DNA from: an uncultured Pseudomonadales bacterium
GTDB taxonomy: Bacteria; Pseudomonadota; Gammaproteobacteria; Pseudomonadales; Azotimanducaceae
Direction: 5' to 3'
DNA: 64,000 bases
Assembly: GCA_938036875.1 (NCBI GenBank)
Contig: CALHVX010000002.1
Coordinates: 1-64,000 of the forward strand
Shown here: piece after piece, positions 49,906 to 57,490 of the stretch
Layout: every line of letters begins with the position of its first letter
Numbering within the stretch: the first letter of the stretch is position 1
The notes under the pieces: model-generated
Databases searched by the model: none
The model's input: only the letters and a program-made list of their open reading frames with translations
What the model was told of the DNA's origin: nothing
Translations under genes and position numbers: made by a program

Positions 49906-49992
49906 GCCTGGGTGGCGAAATTGGTAGACGCGCCAGACTCAAACTCTGGTGGGGTAACACCCGTGCCGGTTCGACTCCGGCTCCAGGTACCA
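49906..49992 (+). tRNA. tRNA-Leu (anticodon CAA)
   Basis: The 87-base gene has a 7-bp acceptor stem (GCCTGGG with TCCAGGT, two G-U pairs), an anticodon arm CCAGA-CTCAAAC-TCTGG with anticodon CAA, a long variable arm TGGGGTAACACCC, a TTCGACTC T-loop and an encoded CCA end. The long variable arm and discriminator A confirm leucine. No strong promoter or T-run terminator was found close by. Confidence 0.96.
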
Positions 49993-50169: not shown

Positions 50170-50403
50170 ATGGACATCATGGATTTTAGCGGCAAGCTCG
50201 AGAACCTCATCGACCGGGCTGAAGCCAGTTACATCGAGCTCATCGGCACACTAGAACTGGCCAAGCAACGGCTCATCCAAGAAGCACTCGTGGATGAAGA
50301 AGATGAGGAAGACGACCTCGAAGAGTACGAAGATGGCGTTGAGTACGAAGATGATGAAGACGATGGCGAGGAAGACGACGAAGACGACGACCGGTTTCGG
50401 TAG
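50170..50403 (+). CDS. Small, extremely acidic protein of unknown function
   Basis: The 77-residue frame has a good AGAGGA site. The first 40 residues could form an amphipathic helix (KLENLIDRAEASYIELIGTLELAK). In the last 37 residues 27 are Asp or Glu. There is no signal peptide. It is not recognised. The alternative is a chance frame through a GA-rich stretch, but the ribosome binding site, the helical N-terminus and the position between a tRNA and a convergent operon favour a real gene. Acidic tails of this type occur in nucleic-acid mimics and chaperones, but no function can be assigned. Confidence 0.6.
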   Translation: MDIMDFSGKLENLIDRAEASYIELIGTLELAKQRLIQEALVDEEDEEDDLEEYEDGVEYEDDEDDGEEDDEDDDRFR

Positions 50404-50475
50404 CGTCGGGGGCAGCCGAGAGCAAAGGCACAAGCCACTATAAACCCTATCGACCAGCCCTGGATTGACCCAGCG

Positions 50476-52686
50476 TTAAACCATCCGCAAGCGTCGCCCT
50501 GGCGCCCTGCGCCCGAAGCGACCGGCCAACCTTGAACGACCATTGACCCAAAAGTAGATTCCTGCGAGCAACAGCAGCATCAACAGGCTGGCCAGTTCGC
50601 TTGGTTCCGGTGTGCCGTAACCCGTAAATGCAGCGGCTGGGTAAGCGCTGTTCGCAACACCAGCAACTCTAGCCAGCGGTACTTGGGCATCCACAGCTAA
50701 GCCCGGCTCAGGGTTGACCAGTGTCTTAGAAACAGCAACAAAAGCCGTCCACTGAGTAACCAGCCGATGCTTCAAACCTAGCTCGGTCACCTGTGCTTGT
50801 AGATCTTCGTCCGTCAGCAGACCGCCAGACTCAGCGCGCTCACGCAGTCTTTGTGGTGCGGTGAATTGGTGCATGGCGGCTTGGACCTTAGCGCGCGCCC
50901 AGGTTTGTCCTAACGCGGGTTTTGCACCGGAACTGGTAAACTCCACCCAACGCTCAAACTGGACCTTCTCGCCACCAGCCGACAGTCCGTGCAACACCAG
51001 GTTGCCTGCTGCTGGCCCAAGGTAACGCCCCTGAATCTGCACGGATTGACCGGCAAACAAATCCGGCAGTTGCGCTGGAAGCACATCGGTTACCGGTAGC
51101 TCCTGCCAATCAATGCTCAGTTGGGTAAGGACAGGATGCTGCAAGCGCGCGGCCAGACTGGTCGCTGCCTCCTCCACATCAGCGGTTGGGTCCATGTACT
51201 GAGAAAACCCTTGCCCAACCCGAGCTAACTCATCCAGCAGGTAACGGTTGACCGAGGTACCCACGCCAAAGGCATAAAGTCGAGCGTCGCCTAAGTTCAT
51301 GGTTACCAACCGAAGTATCTCTTGCTCATTGCCAATGTAGCCGTCCGTTAGGAACACCACTTGCCGAACCTGACCGGATACTGCTGCGCTGGCCAATGCT
51401 TGGTAGACACCGCTACTCATGACCGTACCACCAGAACCCTGCAGCGACTCGGTGTAAGCCAACCCTTTGCTAACATTCACTGGGGTTGCTCGCAGCGGCT
51501 TGGCAGAGAACTCGGTGGCGACATCGCTAAAACGAATGATACGAAAGCTATCCTGTGGCGATAACCCGGCCAGCGCTCGGCGCATAAAAGCTTTGCTAGC
51601 CTCCATCGGCAACCCATACATCGATCCGGAGCAATCCAGCAAAAATACCATCTCCCGAGGCACGCTAGGTCCTGCAGCGGCCCCTAACGGTGGCTCGATC
51701 AACAGGCTGAAATACCCGTTGTCTCCTGCCTCCCAATGACCAACTAGACCGGCGCTTACCTCGGGTTCCGCGAGCGCGTAACGCAACACAAAGTCACGGT
51801 TGGCAATCACCGCCCCCGCTTGAAGCTGCACTCTGCGCTGTCCCGGCAAGGGCTCACTGATAACAACTTGGTGAGTACTGCTCGCGGCACCGCTGATCCG
51901 TTGCCCTGCGTTTATATTGACCTCAAGCGTCAGTTGCGCTGTCGCAGAGGTCTGCGGATTGTCCAAGCTCGCATTAGTCAAACCTGGGACTAGGGGGTAA
52001 GCCGGAAGCGGTTCATCCACAACGCTGCTAGCGGTAACAAGGTTGATGCTCGAAGCAGGTACTCCGGGTTGATAGCGCGGCCCCACTACCGTTGGAATCA
52101 CCAGTTCATACTCACCATCAATTTTTGGTAAGACCTGAACATATTCCAGCTCTACCTCAATCGGCGCACCAGGCATCAAGTTAGCAATACGTTGGGTAAA
52201 CATATTCGGGCGATGCTGACGCAAGATAGCCGCCGCTTTACCCTCAGACTTGGCTTGTTGGTAGGTTTTCTCTGCCTTCTTAATGGTTGCAATCTTTGCT
52301 TCGATCTCTTCGTTACCTACGCGCATACGCATGCGATGGACGGCCGCCGTTTTGTTTAAGGGAAACAAGTAACGCGCATGTACCGGCTCGTTATGTTCAT
52401 TCACAAAGGTTTGGCGAAGTTGCACGTTCGCCACGTTACCGTCGATCTGCACTTGGTAGTTGCTGCTCACCATCGGTAGGGTCTGCAATTGTCCGCCCAC
52501 CTCAAACTCAATGCTCCCACCAGGCGTAACGGGTTCAGCTACCGGCCCATTTGCCAGGGCTTGCACGGCCCCAAACGAGCCCAACAACCACAACGACAAC
52601 CAGCAACCCATCAACGACGAAGGGCAGAACTTGTGGCAGAAAAAATCTTTGGAGAATCGAAAAGACCAGGTTCGAAATAGAGTCAT
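50476..52686 (-). CDS. Secreted VIT and von Willebrand A domain protein with PEP-CTERM-like sorting signal
   Basis: The 736-residue precursor has a long signal peptide (to about residue 46), a VIT domain (about 60-190), and a vWA domain with MIDAS motif DCSGS at 351-355. The C-terminus has PEP at 693-695, a leucine-rich membrane segment and a tail with nine arginines. VIT-vWA proteins of this shape are the cargo of the proteobacterial dedicated sortase system, where the C-terminal signal is LPXTG-like; here it is of the exosortase type. The ATG at 52686 (AAGG 9 bases upstream) is preferred to 52695. It follows the exosortase gene by 72 bases on the same strand. Confidence 0.9.
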   Translation of the reverse strand: MTLFRTWSFRFSKDFFCHKFCPSSLMGCWLSLWLLGSFGAVQALANGPVAEPVTPGGSIEFEVGGQLQTLPMVSSNYQVQIDGNVANVQLRQTFVNEHNEPVHARYLFPLNKTAAVHRMRMRVGNEEIEAKIATIKKAEKTYQQAKSEGKAAAILRQHRPNMFTQRIANLMPGAPIEVELEYVQVLPKIDGEYELVIPTVVGPRYQPGVPASSINLVTASSVVDEPLPAYPLVPGLTNASLDNPQTSATAQLTLEVNINAGQRISGAASSTHQVVISEPLPGQRRVQLQAGAVIANRDFVLRYALAEPEVSAGLVGHWEAGDNGYFSLLIEPPLGAAAGPSVPREMVFLLDCSGSMYGLPMEASKAFMRRALAGLSPQDSFRIIRFSDVATEFSAKPLRATPVNVSKGLAYTESLQGSGGTVMSSGVYQALASAAVSGQVRQVVFLTDGYIGNEQEILRLVTMNLGDARLYAFGVGTSVNRYLLDELARVGQGFSQYMDPTADVEEAATSLAARLQHPVLTQLSIDWQELPVTDVLPAQLPDLFAGQSVQIQGRYLGPAAGNLVLHGLSAGGEKVQFERWVEFTSSGAKPALGQTWARAKVQAAMHQFTAPQRLRERAESGGLLTDEDLQAQVTELGLKHRLVTQWTAFVAVSKTLVNPEPGLAVDAQVPLARVAGVANSAYPAAAFTGYGTPEPSELASLLMLLLLAGIYFWVNGRSRLAGRFGRRAPGRRLRMV

Positions 52687-52758
52687 GGCTAGCATCCTTG
52701 TGGCAGAAAATTAGTTGGCATCAAACGGTTGGTTTGAGCACTTCGGGTTTGGCATGTA

Positions 52759-54354
52759 TCAACTGGGTCCAGTTGGTTTAGGGAGCAATGCACTGATGGA
52801 TATGGGGTTAACGGGGGTGTACAAATTAAACGCGCGGAGCACAGCTTGGTCCCAGTCGGCCGCTGCTGGGGGTATCAAGCGCGACCTTGGCCCACCGGCC
52901 ACAACCGGGCCTTGTGCGGACAACGGCCACGGCACCAAACGCTGCACCATGGTCCAGCGGGTGTTCGGCGAGCGCAGCCAGTGCCAGGCCACTTCAGATA
53001 AGCTGGCGGTTACCTCACCGTTATCGGCCAGGTAGCTCACTCGGACTTGCCAAACCTCACCACTAGCGATGCTTTGGGCTCGGTATACGGCAGTGGGTAC
53101 CGAACTGAGATCCGTACCCATGAGCTCAACCTGATAACCCATACCACCCAAACAAACATCAGGTGCATGTAGGTGTCGAATGGGTGCGCCGGTACGGACT
53201 AACAGCAAACCGTTGGATCCGTAGCTGGCCTTGGTCGCTGCGCCACCATAGGTTTGGTAGTAGTTGAGCTCCTGCTCTGTTAACACAGCCGCGCGACGCG
53301 ATTCACCCGCCAGCACCAAGGGTGCATAAGGTGGCGTCAAGCTAGCCGTGCGATCAAAAGGCTGAGCATCCAGCCGCACAACCACTAGCGCCACCAACAC
53401 AAATGCCGTGGCGCTAGCTAACGCTCGGTAGGGCTTATCGACGCCAGGCTGCATACCCCAAGCTTGGGGCGCCGTAGCCGGAGAAATGCGCAGCTTACGG
53501 GTTCGAGGGTCACTACCGGTAACCGGCGCTCTTCTTGCCCAAGCCAACAGCGCTAGTGCCAACACCGCAAAGCACAGCAACCCAATGGCTGAATGCAATG
53601 GGGGTGACATCACATCAAGCCCCCAAGGCGGGTAAACCAAACCCAAAGCCAACAACGCAATGCGTATTGCGTTCAAGAGCCAAACCAAAAACAAGCTAAG
53701 CGACACGCCAACCAACAACCTAAGCCGTGATGGGGGTGAGACCGCAAAGACCAGGGCAAGCAGCAAACTCGCTCGCACCAACAGCTGCGACCCTGAACAA
53801 GCCAGGTCCACCAATATATCCACGCCTTGCACCGTCAAACGCAGGCCGTGGCAGATCACCTCATCGACCGTGATTGATAACAGGCCACAGGCACCTTGAG
53901 CGCTCAGCCATTGCAACGGCGCACCCAGCAGCCGTTGCAGCCAAGGCTCCAATGGTAAGCAAAAACAAAACACAACGGCCAACCAAAAAGGGGCAACGGC
54001 CCGGCGTCTTGCGCCGGTGCCAAGCAGCAGCGCTATGGCATACACATCTACCGCTAGCACCAAAGCGCCCAACAGGTTGATGTCAGCCAATTGGGCTATC
54101 GCACGGATACAAGCGCTCACCAGCAACAAGCCAAGACCAACCGTCTGTCCTTGTTCGAATTGACCATCAACAAAGACTCGGGAGCTGGTCAGCGCGTAAC
54201 CAAACAGCACTAAGACCAAGGCAAACACCACGGGGCCAGATCGGGGATAACCTGGCAGATACCAAGAACCCCACAACCACAGCACCGGCTCGTAGGCCAA
54301 TAGCAGCGCACCGCTGAGCAGCAAAATTGTGGTTGTTGGGCGTATCCAGTCCAT
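52759..54354 (-). CDS. Exosortase fused to an EpsI-type (DUF3485) domain
   Basis: The first 300 of 531 residues are a polytopic membrane protein with the exosortase triad: cysteine 186 in ACSG, arginine 231 in NAIR and histidine 254. One more membrane segment near 310-327 is followed by a periplasmic EpsI-like domain with LHAPDVCLGGMGYQV at 395-409. Exosortases cleave PEP-CTERM-type signals and probably transfer the protein to another molecule. No exopolysaccharide genes surround it; the VIT/vWA gene just downstream carries the matching signal. ATG at 54354 is chosen over TTG at 54438, since it leaves an intergenic promoter region. Confidence 0.88.
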   Translation of the reverse strand: MDWIRPTTTILLLSGALLLAYEPVLWLWGSWYLPGYPRSGPVVFALVLVLFGYALTSSRVFVDGQFEQGQTVGLGLLLVSACIRAIAQLADINLLGALVLAVDVYAIALLLGTGARRRAVAPFWLAVVFCFCLPLEPWLQRLLGAPLQWLSAQGACGLLSITVDEVICHGLRLTVQGVDILVDLACSGSQLLVRASLLLALVFAVSPPSRLRLLVGVSLSLFLVWLLNAIRIALLALGLVYPPWGLDVMSPPLHSAIGLLCFAVLALALLAWARRAPVTGSDPRTRKLRISPATAPQAWGMQPGVDKPYRALASATAFVLVALVVVRLDAQPFDRTASLTPPYAPLVLAGESRRAAVLTEQELNYYQTYGGAATKASYGSNGLLLVRTGAPIRHLHAPDVCLGGMGYQVELMGTDLSSVPTAVYRAQSIASGEVWQVRVSYLADNGEVTASLSEVAWHWLRSPNTRWTMVQRLVPWPLSAQGPVVAGGPRSRLIPPAAADWDQAVLRAFNLYTPVNPISISALLPKPTGPS

Positions 54355-54477
54355 GTGGGTCAGTGTGCAAGGCCCGATTACCGGAAATCGTCCGTAAGAC
54401 CTGCACTGGCTGCATCTTTTGGTGCAATTTCTGCGCAAGGCCAGGCGGTCAAGCCCAACTGATTGGGCCGGCGCTGC

Positions 54478-54483
54478 TACAAT
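54478..54483 (+). promoter_or_regulatory. Possible -10 element of the response regulator gene
   Basis: TACAAT lies only 6 bases before the ATG at 54490, so a transcript started from it would be leaderless or nearly so. No good -35 is present at the right distance, which would fit an activator-dependent promoter. The 135-base gap to the divergent exosortase gene must hold the promoters for both. Confidence 0.3.
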
Positions 54484-54489
54484 CTGGCC

Positions 54490-55167
54490 ATGCAGACAAT
54501 ACTAGTAGTGGACGACGATCCACACATTCGGGAAGTGGTGTGCTTTGCTCTAGAGCGTGCTGGCTTCAAAACCTTAGAAGCCGAGAACGGTGTGCGCGCA
54601 TTAGCCCAGCACAGCAAACATCAGCCAGACCTGGTCGTACTCGACATCCTCATGCCCGAGACGGACGGGTTAGCCGTTTGCAATCAGCTGCGTTCCCACT
54701 CCGCCGTCCCCATTATCTTTGTTTCCTCCAAGGACGAAGAGGTCGATCGCATCATTGGCTTAGAGATGGGGGGCGACGACTACCTAGCCAAGCCCTTCAG
54801 CCCTCGCGAGTTGGTTGCCCGGGTTAAAGCAAACCTACGTCGCATTGACCTTAGCCGCACAGAGCAACCGGCGCTGCTGAGCGTGGATGAACTGAGTGTC
54901 AACCTAGATACCCTTGAGGCACAGTGGCAGGGCCAACTGATACCGCTAACCCACACCGAGTTTTGCATGCTCGCCACTTTTGCCCGGGCTCCCGACAAAG
55001 TCCTCACCCGAGACGCTCTGATGCAAGGCGCCTACGACAGCCGTCGCGTGGTGAGTGACCGCACCATCGATAGCCACATCCGCCGCTTGCGGGAAAAGCT
55101 AGCAGCCGTTGGCGCCCATAGCATTCGTACCATTCACGGCGTTGGTTACCGGTTGCAAACTGCGTGA
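54490..55167 (+). CDS. OmpR/PhoB-family response regulator
   Basis: The 225-residue regulator has a receiver domain with acidic pocket DDD at 8-10, phosphorylation site D52 in VVLDILMP and lysine 101 in AKPFSP, then a winged-helix DNA-binding domain (TRDALMQGAYDSRRVVSDRT, ending GVGYRLQT). It is translated into the histidine kinase: its TGA overlaps the kinase GTG. It is divergent from the exosortase-VIT/vWA pair. The dedicated sortase systems of Proteobacteria also carry an OmpR-type regulator and kinase in this position, so local control of the sorting locus is likely but inferred. Confidence 0.93.
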   Translation: MQTILVVDDDPHIREVVCFALERAGFKTLEAENGVRALAQHSKHQPDLVVLDILMPETDGLAVCNQLRSHSAVPIIFVSSKDEEVDRIIGLEMGGDDYLAKPFSPRELVARVKANLRRIDLSRTEQPALLSVDELSVNLDTLEAQWQGQLIPLTHTEFCMLATFARAPDKVLTRDALMQGAYDSRRVVSDRTIDSHIRRLREKLAAVGAHSIRTIHGVGYRLQTA

Positions 55168-56759
55168 TAACAAACTGGCGGACTTGGCGCCCCAGGCTGC
55201 GCACGGTTCTCATTTTGGTCAACCTAGTCGTTTTGGGTTTACCGCTAGCCGGCATCCAAGTTTTGCGTTTGTACGAAAGCGCGTTGGTTCGGCAAACCGA
55301 AAGTGCGTTGATTGCCCAAGCCGCCTTTGTTGCCGCTTTTTATCGCGCCATTGTGGTGGATGTTGCGCCTCAGACTTGGCCGTTAGAAAGTCGTGAGTTG
55401 CCACCGCTAGATATCAACGCAGACCCAAGCAACTGGCGCCCGCGACCACCCGAGCTAGATCTTGCATCCTCACCACGACTGCCACCCTTTCCAGATGGCA
55501 TGGCAACCGCTCAACCCAACCCGGTTGCCAAAGCCATTGGTGAGCGTTTACAGCCGGTGCTGCGTGATGCCCAACTCACCACCCTGGCAGGCATTCGCGT
55601 GGTCGACCCTTGGGGCGTCATCGTCGCCAGCACAGGTGATGACGTAGGTAACGCGGTGCCAACTGGTACCGAGTTGGACCAGGCGCTCACCGGGCAGTAC
55701 GCCAGCGTACTACGGCGCCGAGAAGACCCCACCGATCCTTCGGCGTTAGATTCCATTAGTCGCACCAGCGATATTCGGGTCTTTGTTGCCGCCCCCATAG
55801 TGCTTGACGAACGGGTAGTTGGTGCGGTGCTTTTATCGCGAACCCCACCAAACATCGTGCAAGCACTGTACGCCAAGCGACTGTTGTTGCTGCAAGGCCT
55901 AGCCGCCTTATTGGTGTTGGTTGTTTTAATGTCCATTGTCACCTCACGTTTGGTTGCCCGCCCGATAACACGCTTGGCCCGAGGCGCCGAAGAGGTAGCG
56001 TCTGGACGGGCTGCAGCGCTAGCGGTACAAAAATCTCCCAGAACCTACGAGATGGCGCAACTACAAAGCAGCGTTGCAGCGATGGCAGCAACCCTAGAGC
56101 AGCGCGCTGACTACCTCCAAGAGTTTGCGCGGCACGTGTCCCACGAATTCAAAACACCCATCACCGGAATCCAAGGTGCGGTGGAAGTACTACGCGACCA
56201 TGCGCAAAGCATGAGCACGGAGCAATACGACCGCTTCTTAAGCAACATCGATGCGGATGCAGATCGACTGCGACGCTTAACCACTCGCCTGCTGGACTTA
56301 ACCCGCGCCGATATGGCTACCGCTCAGCTTGAAACTTTAGATGCCAACCTGTTGCTCAAAAATGTGGTTGTTAAACATCAAAGCGACAACTTTCAGGTCC
56401 TCGCCATTACTCGCGATGACCCATTGACGCTGCGTACCAATGCATCCTTTGTTGAAGCAGTGCTCGACACCTTGATCGAAAATGCCCAACAGCAACAGGC
56501 CAACGAGGTCAGGCTCAGGCTGGTAGCAAATCCAAGCCAAGTGGTCTTTGAAGTGGCCGATAACGGTAGGGGCATTTCGGCTGCGAACCGGGAAAAAATC
56601 TTTGAGCCTTTCTTTACCACTAACCGGGAAGCGGGTGGCACGGGTTTGGGGCTAACCATTGCCGCCAAGCTGGTTGAGAGCTTGAACGGCCAACTAGAGC
56701 TTGCACCCATCACCGAACAGAGCACCAACACCCTGTTTCGCCTGGTGTTACCTCGCTAA
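55164..56759 (+). CDS. Sensor histidine kinase of the sorting locus
   Basis: The 531-residue protein has membrane segments at about 14-33 and 238-260 enclosing a periplasmic sensor domain of about 200 residues, which contains a PAS-like stretch (AGIRVVDPWGVIVASTGDD). A HAMP domain (about 262-312), a HisKA domain with phosphoacceptor H327 in ARHVSHEFKTP, and a HATPase domain with N, G1 and G2 boxes (DNGRGIS, GTGLGLT) follow. The GTG start overlaps the TGA of the regulator. It shares features with CreC and with the kinases of dedicated sortase systems; the signal is unknown. Confidence 0.92.
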   Translation: MITNWRTWRPRLRTVLILVNLVVLGLPLAGIQVLRLYESALVRQTESALIAQAAFVAAFYRAIVVDVAPQTWPLESRELPPLDINADPSNWRPRPPELDLASSPRLPPFPDGMATAQPNPVAKAIGERLQPVLRDAQLTTLAGIRVVDPWGVIVASTGDDVGNAVPTGTELDQALTGQYASVLRRREDPTDPSALDSISRTSDIRVFVAAPIVLDERVVGAVLLSRTPPNIVQALYAKRLLLLQGLAALLVLVVLMSIVTSRLVARPITRLARGAEEVASGRAAALAVQKSPRTYEMAQLQSSVAAMAATLEQRADYLQEFARHVSHEFKTPITGIQGAVEVLRDHAQSMSTEQYDRFLSNIDADADRLRRLTTRLLDLTRADMATAQLETLDANLLLKNVVVKHQSDNFQVLAITRDDPLTLRTNASFVEAVLDTLIENAQQQQANEVRLRLVANPSQVVFEVADNGRGISAANREKIFEPFFTTNREAGGTGLGLTIAAKLVESLNGQLELAPITEQSTNTLFRLVLPR

Positions 56760-56794: not shown

Positions 56795-56828
56795 CCAAAA
56801 AAGCCAGCGGTTATCCGCTGGCTTTTCT
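56795..56828. terminator. Bidirectional intrinsic terminator
   Basis: AAGCCAGCGG and CCGCTGGCTT form a 10-bp stem with loop TTAT. T-runs occur on the exit side of both strands (TTTT on plus, TTTTTTGG on minus). It lies between the histidine kinase gene and the convergent basic-protein gene and can serve both. Confidence 0.9.
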
Positions 56829-56863
56829 GCTTACCCTAGCGCTAGCTAAAAGCCTAGCTAGGT

Positions 56864-57490
56864 CTAGTGGCGACCTGATCTGTGGCCACGACGGTTACGA
56901 TCAACACCAGCGAAGTAAGCCTGCTCATGACCATGGCGATAGTGCTTACGATACTTCTTCAAGTAACGCTGATAAAGACGCGGGGTCACGTACCGCTCGT
57001 CGTGCGTTAGTCGCCATTGGTGCCGACTCCAACGCTTAAAGCTCATGGGGCGGTACAAGGGATCCGCATATAGCGGGTTCGCATAACGCGCGTTGCGCTG
57101 CTGACGGTAAACCCTATCCCATCGACGTTCTGCCCGGCGATCTGCGCGGCGCTGCGCGCGGCGATGATCACGACGATAATCCCGGCGGTCATAACGGTCC
57201 GAACGATATCGGTCATGGCGATCTCGATGGGATACCGGTTGCAAGGCATCGAGGTCACGAGCGACCTTACGCACCACCCGGTTGAGCTTCCGCTCGACAA
57301 CACGCCCAGGATGAGCGTGCGCATTGCTCACATGAAAACTCACCTTGCTATCGGCCAAAGCAGGCGTTGCCATCCCAAACAGCATGGCGGCACCCAGTAT
57401 AGGCAGAGTTCGTGAGCCGGCCTTGCGCCAGCGACTTACGCCGCTAGTGGCTTTTCGATTTTGGGCGGTTTTTTGGTTGCTATGTTTCAT
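56864..57490 (-). CDS. Secreted arginine-, tyrosine- and histidine-rich protein of unknown function
   Basis: The 208-residue precursor has a basic N-region and a signal peptide ending TPALA at about residue 46. The mature part is strongly basic: residues 85-135 are mostly arginine, aspartate, histidine and tyrosine in irregular RRxxRR repeats, and the C-terminus is rich in arginine and histidine. No family was recognised. A strong AAGGAG site precedes the ATG, and an 11-bp-phased direct-repeat array lies 50-95 bases upstream. It converges on the sensor kinase of the sorting locus and may be its regulatory target. Confidence 0.75.
   Translation of the reverse strand: MKHSNQKTAQNRKATSGVSRWRKAGSRTLPILGAAMLFGMATPALADSKVSFHVSNAHAHPGRVVERKLNRVVRKVARDLDALQPVSHRDRHDRYRSDRYDRRDYRRDHRRAQRRADRRAERRWDRVYRQQRNARYANPLYADPLYRPMSFKRWSRHQWRLTHDERYVTPRLYQRYLKKYRKHYRHGHEQAYFAGVDRNRRGHRSGRH

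Follow-up and report, generated by a model that had tools for sequence, protein, structure and literature searches.

According to PMC3237569, a genome that has PEP-CTERM proteins often encodes twenty targets or more, and because of such numbers the substrates of exosortases and the signals that switch these enzymes on are poorly known. The DNA analysed here (64,000 nucleotides from an uncultured Pseudomonadales bacterium, hereafter the window) carries an exosortase gene beside the gene of one secreted VIT-vWA protein and a two-component pair, and raises the question of whether an exosortase can serve a single cargo under regulators of its own. Our answer, given with good confidence, is that these genes form a dedicated exosortase-T system with its own VIT-vWA cargo, regulators and putative operator. 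With one enzyme, one substrate and a predicted operator, such a module makes the cleavage site, the acceptor and the regulation directly testable, and it is present in the cultured isolates Stappia sediminis and Methyloglobulus morosus. The locus shows, too, that the same cargo has been combined in parallel with transpeptidases and regulators that are not related to each other.

Gene content and the exosortase

The four genes of the original prediction, encoding a VIT-vWA protein, an exosortase, an OmpR-type regulator and a histidine kinase at 50476–56759, are all intact. The exosortase gene is followed by the VIT-vWA gene on the minus strand, and the response regulator and kinase genes diverge from them on the plus strand (Table 1). 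Pfam scores are far above cut-off for VIT (104 bits), VWA_3 (58 bits) and Exosortase_EpsH (67 bits), as they are for the Response_reg and Trans_reg_C domains of the regulator and the HisKA and HATPase domains of the kinase. The exosortase reading frame can be followed back to TTG 54438 and that of the regulator is open from TTG 54463, but the likely starts are ATG 54354 and ATG 54490, which leave a divergent intergenic region of 135 bp. The regulator and kinase genes overlap by 4 bp, and a scan for a sigma-70 promoter found none. Because the same arrangement was found again in about 40 other genomes, it is not a product of chance.

Table 1. Positions of the genes and predicted elements of the locus in the window.
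Feature	Position	Strand	Basis
VIT-vWA protein, secreted, 739 aa, putative sole exosortase substrate	50476..52695	-	Pfam VIT and VWA; TIGR03788; tree clade
C-terminal sorting signal AFTGYGTPEP, hydrophobic helix and basic residues	50527..50631	-	tail alignment, tail-model match
Exosortase T (XrtT), 531 aa from ATG 54354	52759..54354	-	NF033770; alignment; AlphaFold model
Putative operator TGCGCAGAAATTGCAC, TGCAC-N6-TGCAC direct repeat with one mismatch	54422..54437	-	divergent intergenic region
OmpR-type response regulator	54490..55167	+	Pfam Response_reg and Trans_reg_C; clade of exosortase-linked regulators
Membrane sensor histidine kinase, HAMP, HisKA and HATPase	55164..56759	+	Pfam domains, tree
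Terminator-like hairpin, 15 pairs, past the kinase gene and before the next convergent gene	56796..56829	-	

Around the locus, the interval from queA to the VIT gene holds a tRNA gene (49906–49989, Rfam tRNA) and, at 50170–50404, a small ORF whose product has a long Asp/Glu tail, and a gene convergent to that of the kinase (56864–57490) encodes a secreted 208-aa protein, very rich in Arg, Asp, Tyr and His and without a family match.

The enzyme belongs to exosortase T, with 462.9 bits against the curated cut-off of 250 of NCBIfam model NF033770. Its type is therefore already catalogued, and on this point the original prediction went too far. Cysteine, arginine and histidine are the residues expected in an exosortase active site, and Cys186, Arg231 and His254 (window numbering) are invariant in an alignment of 32 exosortase-T sequences. 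The protein combines a transmembrane catalytic part with an EpsI-like C-terminal domain; its AlphaFold model is confident (pLDDT 86.6), and a fold search with this model against the PDB gave no meaningful match (best E 0.08). Against the XrtN model TIGR04476 it reached 34.8 bits, under the cut-off of 200. With an exosortase-T alignment as query, 40 named loci were gathered besides the window. Most of their hosts are Gammaproteobacteria (Competibacteraceae, Methylococcales, Thiotrichaceae) or Alphaproteobacteria (Stappia, Roseibium, Rhodobacteraceae, Azospirillaceae); contamination may account for the loci in one Nitrospina and one Vampirovibrio bin.

Cargo and sorting signal

A VIT gene, or a piece of one, adjoins exosortase T in 37 of the 40 other named loci. 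Among the three exceptions, one locus lies at a contig end, one is a fragment and one has regulators in that place instead. The VIT gene is also adjacent in the four genomes of the class with an exosortase T over cut-off. The distance matrices of enzyme and cargo are correlated (Mantel r 0.96, 0/2000 permutations), a result that shared ancestry alone would equally produce. Other neighbour families that recur in exosortase-T loci are mostly antisense shadows. The gene of a DUF4153 membrane protein recurs just 3′ of the VIT gene in L125, L130, L132, L140 and L155, with fragments in L120, L134 and L154, and is absent from the window.

The tail of the window VIT protein, ...AFTGYGTPEPSELASLLMLLLLAGIYFWVNGRSRL, has the layout of motif, helix and basic residues, and its motif reads FTGYGTPEP, which is not LPXTG-like. 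The signature [FLM]xGxxxPEP, followed by a helix and basic residues, occurs in 29 of 32 intact exosortase-T VIT tails; the VIT protein of L151 (which is G038) is without PEP and has APAAG. A tail model gave one strong match per genome in 11 genomes, always the VIT protein, and the VIT tail was also the best match in the window's genome (E 5.9e-11). Since this model was built in part from exosortase-T VIT tails of the searched genomes, its informative part is the absence of further matches. Five genomes have no exosortase besides exosortase T, and in them PF07589 detects no PEP-CTERM protein except, in one, the VIT itself. Exosortase T and its VIT protein thus stand as one enzyme with one target, the pattern by which sorting is called dedicated in PMC3237569.

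A two-component pair and a direct repeat

The original prediction held that the regulators had been kept from the dedicated sortase system. This did not hold: against the models TIGR03787 and TIGR03785 of that system the regulator scored 164 and the kinase 104.5, far under the cut-offs of 335.7 and 612.2, and these scores together with the trees rule out membership in the dedicated-sortase pair. In the regulator and kinase trees, all 21 exosortase-T pairs, two XrtQ-like pairs and three orphan pairs form one clade (support 95 and 99), set apart from the sortase-linked pairs in both trees. The best NCBIfam matches are CreB for the regulator and CreC for the kinase, both below cut-off, and E. coli CreBC groups away from the window proteins in both trees. 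Regulator or kinase was found, near or in trans, in 32 of 38 exosortase-T genomes tested by combined searches. The sensor region of the kinase is extracytoplasmic and PAS/Cache-like; its model resembles the sensor domains of WalK and CitA (best E 3.6e-5), matches too weak for a ligand to be named.

Exosortase T is closely preceded by a direct repeat, TGCAC-N6-TGCAC, that has the orientation of the gene. The stretches around the exosortase-T ORF start, taken from 250 bp before it to 200 bp after it, contain 23 exact sites and 13 with one mismatch, against no exact and 16 one-mismatch sites in the remaining 1.05 Mb of the same loci on both strands. When all 5-mers with gaps of 3–8 were ranked, it was the commonest direct repeat, present in 23 loci compared with at most five in 200 control draws, although P values overstate independence because the loci are phylogenetically related. 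On this sequence evidence the repeat is likely an operator. A clear operator is missing in about nine of the 41 loci. The exact repeat also stands in front of the VIT gene in two XrtQ-like loci of the same regulator clade; in the sortase loci, none was seen ahead of the target genes.

Repeat and kinase tend to be present or absent together. Five Thiotrichaceae genomes without the repeat all lack the kinase (0/5), and 10 of 11 searched genomes outside that family without an adjacent kinase have one elsewhere; nine of these ten carry the repeat within one mismatch and the tenth (L124) has a weaker version. The repeat is present and the kinase absent in G389/L158, where the gene is fragmentary. 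This concordance amounts essentially to one loss in one family, and since related genomes are not independent it is strong support for the link and not a clean statistical test.

The direct repeat of CreBC is TTCAC-N6-TTCAC. It has the same spacing as the window repeat, and the strict CreB box (TTCAC repeat) was not found in the divergent regions scanned. A one-mismatch TGCAC repeat was also observed at L170:7743 in G001, a genome without exosortase, between lgt and a regulator of the window's clade.

Known systems and competing readings

The marine, proteobacterial dedicated sortase system (TIGR03784, TIGR03785, TIGR03787, TIGR03788) likewise has a homologous VIT-vWA cargo, one transpeptidase and one two-component pair, but it uses a sortase and LPXTG, whereas the window locus has an exosortase and FxGxxxPEP, with a regulator pair of another clade and below the model cut-offs. 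The locus thus falls outside that system by its sortase, target and regulator criteria alike, and no sortase was detected in the window's genome (no PF04203 match at E 1). The original prediction is borne out in so far as it described a dedicated system of VIT-vWA protein, transpeptidase and two-component pair in which exosortase and PEP-type signal take the place of sortase and LPXTG. Exosortase N with its system VIT (TIGR04476, TIGR04477) and XrtQ (NF012182) also pair an exosortase with a VIT protein, but belong to other exosortase subfamilies and have a six-helix VIT cargo. In L037:2056–5712 and L041:8075–11819, XrtQ-like exosortases adjoin a six-helix, XrtN-system-like VIT with an IPEP tail, and both loci have a two-component pair of the window's clade with an exact TGCAC-N6-TGCAC between the pair and the exosortase/VIT genes. 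In L036:2960–9926 an exosortase over the XrtQ cut-off lies directly 3′ of a VIT-vWA gene with a TPEP tail, with a CreBC-type regulator pair and all genes on one strand.

The VIT-vWA family carries GlyGly-CTERM, LPXTG or PEP-CTERM tails, and this exchange of sorting tags was published in 2011; the PEP-CTERM case in the accessible part of that paper is a single example, Verrucomicrobium spinosum (PMC3237569). A PEP-CTERM tail on this family is accordingly not new, and the exosortase T family has already been named. The accessible part of the same paper covers TIGR03784 and describes no exosortase-T system, its regulators or operator, a literature search on XrtT, TIGR03788 and NF033770 returned nothing relevant, and the NF033770 model names the enzyme only. 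The searched literature makes no mention of XrtT, so that no description seems to exist there of its cargo, its tail signature, its regulators or its operator. As far as could be searched, the conserved exosortase-T/VIT/two-component module, the tail signature, the predicted operator and the regulator-clade link to a second exosortase/VIT system are new. The VIT proteins of L098–L101 and L104 form a further VIT-vWA group with GlyGly-CTERM-like glycine-rich tails, matching those described for rhombosortase targets in PMC3237569.

Could the locus be an ordinary exosortase locus, its VIT protein one of about 20 PEP-CTERM substrates that either exosortase processes? The original prediction had expected few other PEP-CTERM proteins and had counted many of them as evidence of just this. 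The expectation fails for the window's genome, where 20 PEP-CTERM proteins match over cut-off and a polysaccharide cluster contains a second exosortase, which is closest to XrtA but under its cut-off (185 against 208); it holds in other genomes, where exosortase T occurs alone with the VIT only. Yet the FxG signature is found in none of the 18 other PEP-CTERM tails of the window's genome, which has the XrtA-like enzyme besides, and PF07589 misses the VIT tail there even at E 1, despite its PEP. We regard an ordinary locus as most improbable. In this genome the VIT tail may also be acted on by the XrtA-like enzyme. Also improbable, if slightly less so, is the convergent replacement first proposed, by which an ancestral dedicated sortase locus kept cargo and regulators while an exosortase replaced the sortase. 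The four-part architecture is identical in the sortase system, and the cargo is homologous over nearly its full length to the sortase target (477.8 bits with TIGR03788, below the cut-off of 551.65). Moreover, CreBC-type regulators, grouping with E. coli CreBC, are common to the sortase loci L115 and L117 and the XrtQ locus of G311, so that one type of regulator can accompany different types of enzyme. However, the exosortase-T regulators form a clade apart from both sortase-linked types. The tree of VIT-vWA proteins (62 sequences) separates the cargos without intermixing, the 33 of exosortase T in one clade (SH-aLRT 100) and the 14 of sortases in another (99), so the cargo is no recent swap.

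The pair might instead be a general envelope regulator that happens to be a neighbour, with the exosortase operon one of many targets; this we consider rather unlikely. Close kinases do occur in G001, G305 and G074, not beside any exosortase, in genomes where a search for one found none, and the window's genome holds six exact repeats elsewhere. Most of these lie inside genes, only C30:30282 being between divergent genes, and the idea of a wider regulon there was dropped. Further, a kinase at E 1e-45 is present in only nine of 369 genomes of the class, and six of the nine have an exosortase-VIT system (all four exosortase-T genomes, and two with an XrtQ-like exosortase beside a six-helix VIT). 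The repeat, too, clusters in front of exosortase T.

For the dedicated exosortase-T system, the proposed mechanism builds on what can be read from the sequence: the gene identities, their conserved adjacency, the tail signature with one such tail per genome, the conserved repeat and the invariant catalytic residues. We infer the signal, the direction in which the regulator acts, the cutting and transfer of the tail, the acceptor and what the cargo does; for sensing, cleavage, acceptor and cargo function we draw on family knowledge. The kinase would sense an envelope signal through its extracytoplasmic PAS-like domain and phosphorylate the OmpR-type regulator, which would bind TGCAC-N6-TGCAC between the divergent genes and control the exosortase-VIT operon, and probably its own gene. 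The VIT-vWA protein would leave the cytoplasm through Sec and stay in the inner membrane, anchored by its C-terminal helix. Exosortase T, with Cys186, Arg231 and His254 as catalytic residues, would then recognise the FxGxxxPEP tail, cut near PEP and probably attach the newly formed C-terminus to an acceptor in the envelope, so that a metal-binding vWA protein would be displayed at the cell surface. Somewhat short of even confidence, we suggest that this distinct two-component family and its repeat may be a shared controller of VIT-vWA surface proteins across exosortase subfamilies (T, and XrtQ-like with six-helix VIT), in which case the module would be defined by its regulator and type of cargo rather than by its enzyme, and the version with a sortase would have been assembled in parallel with different regulators.
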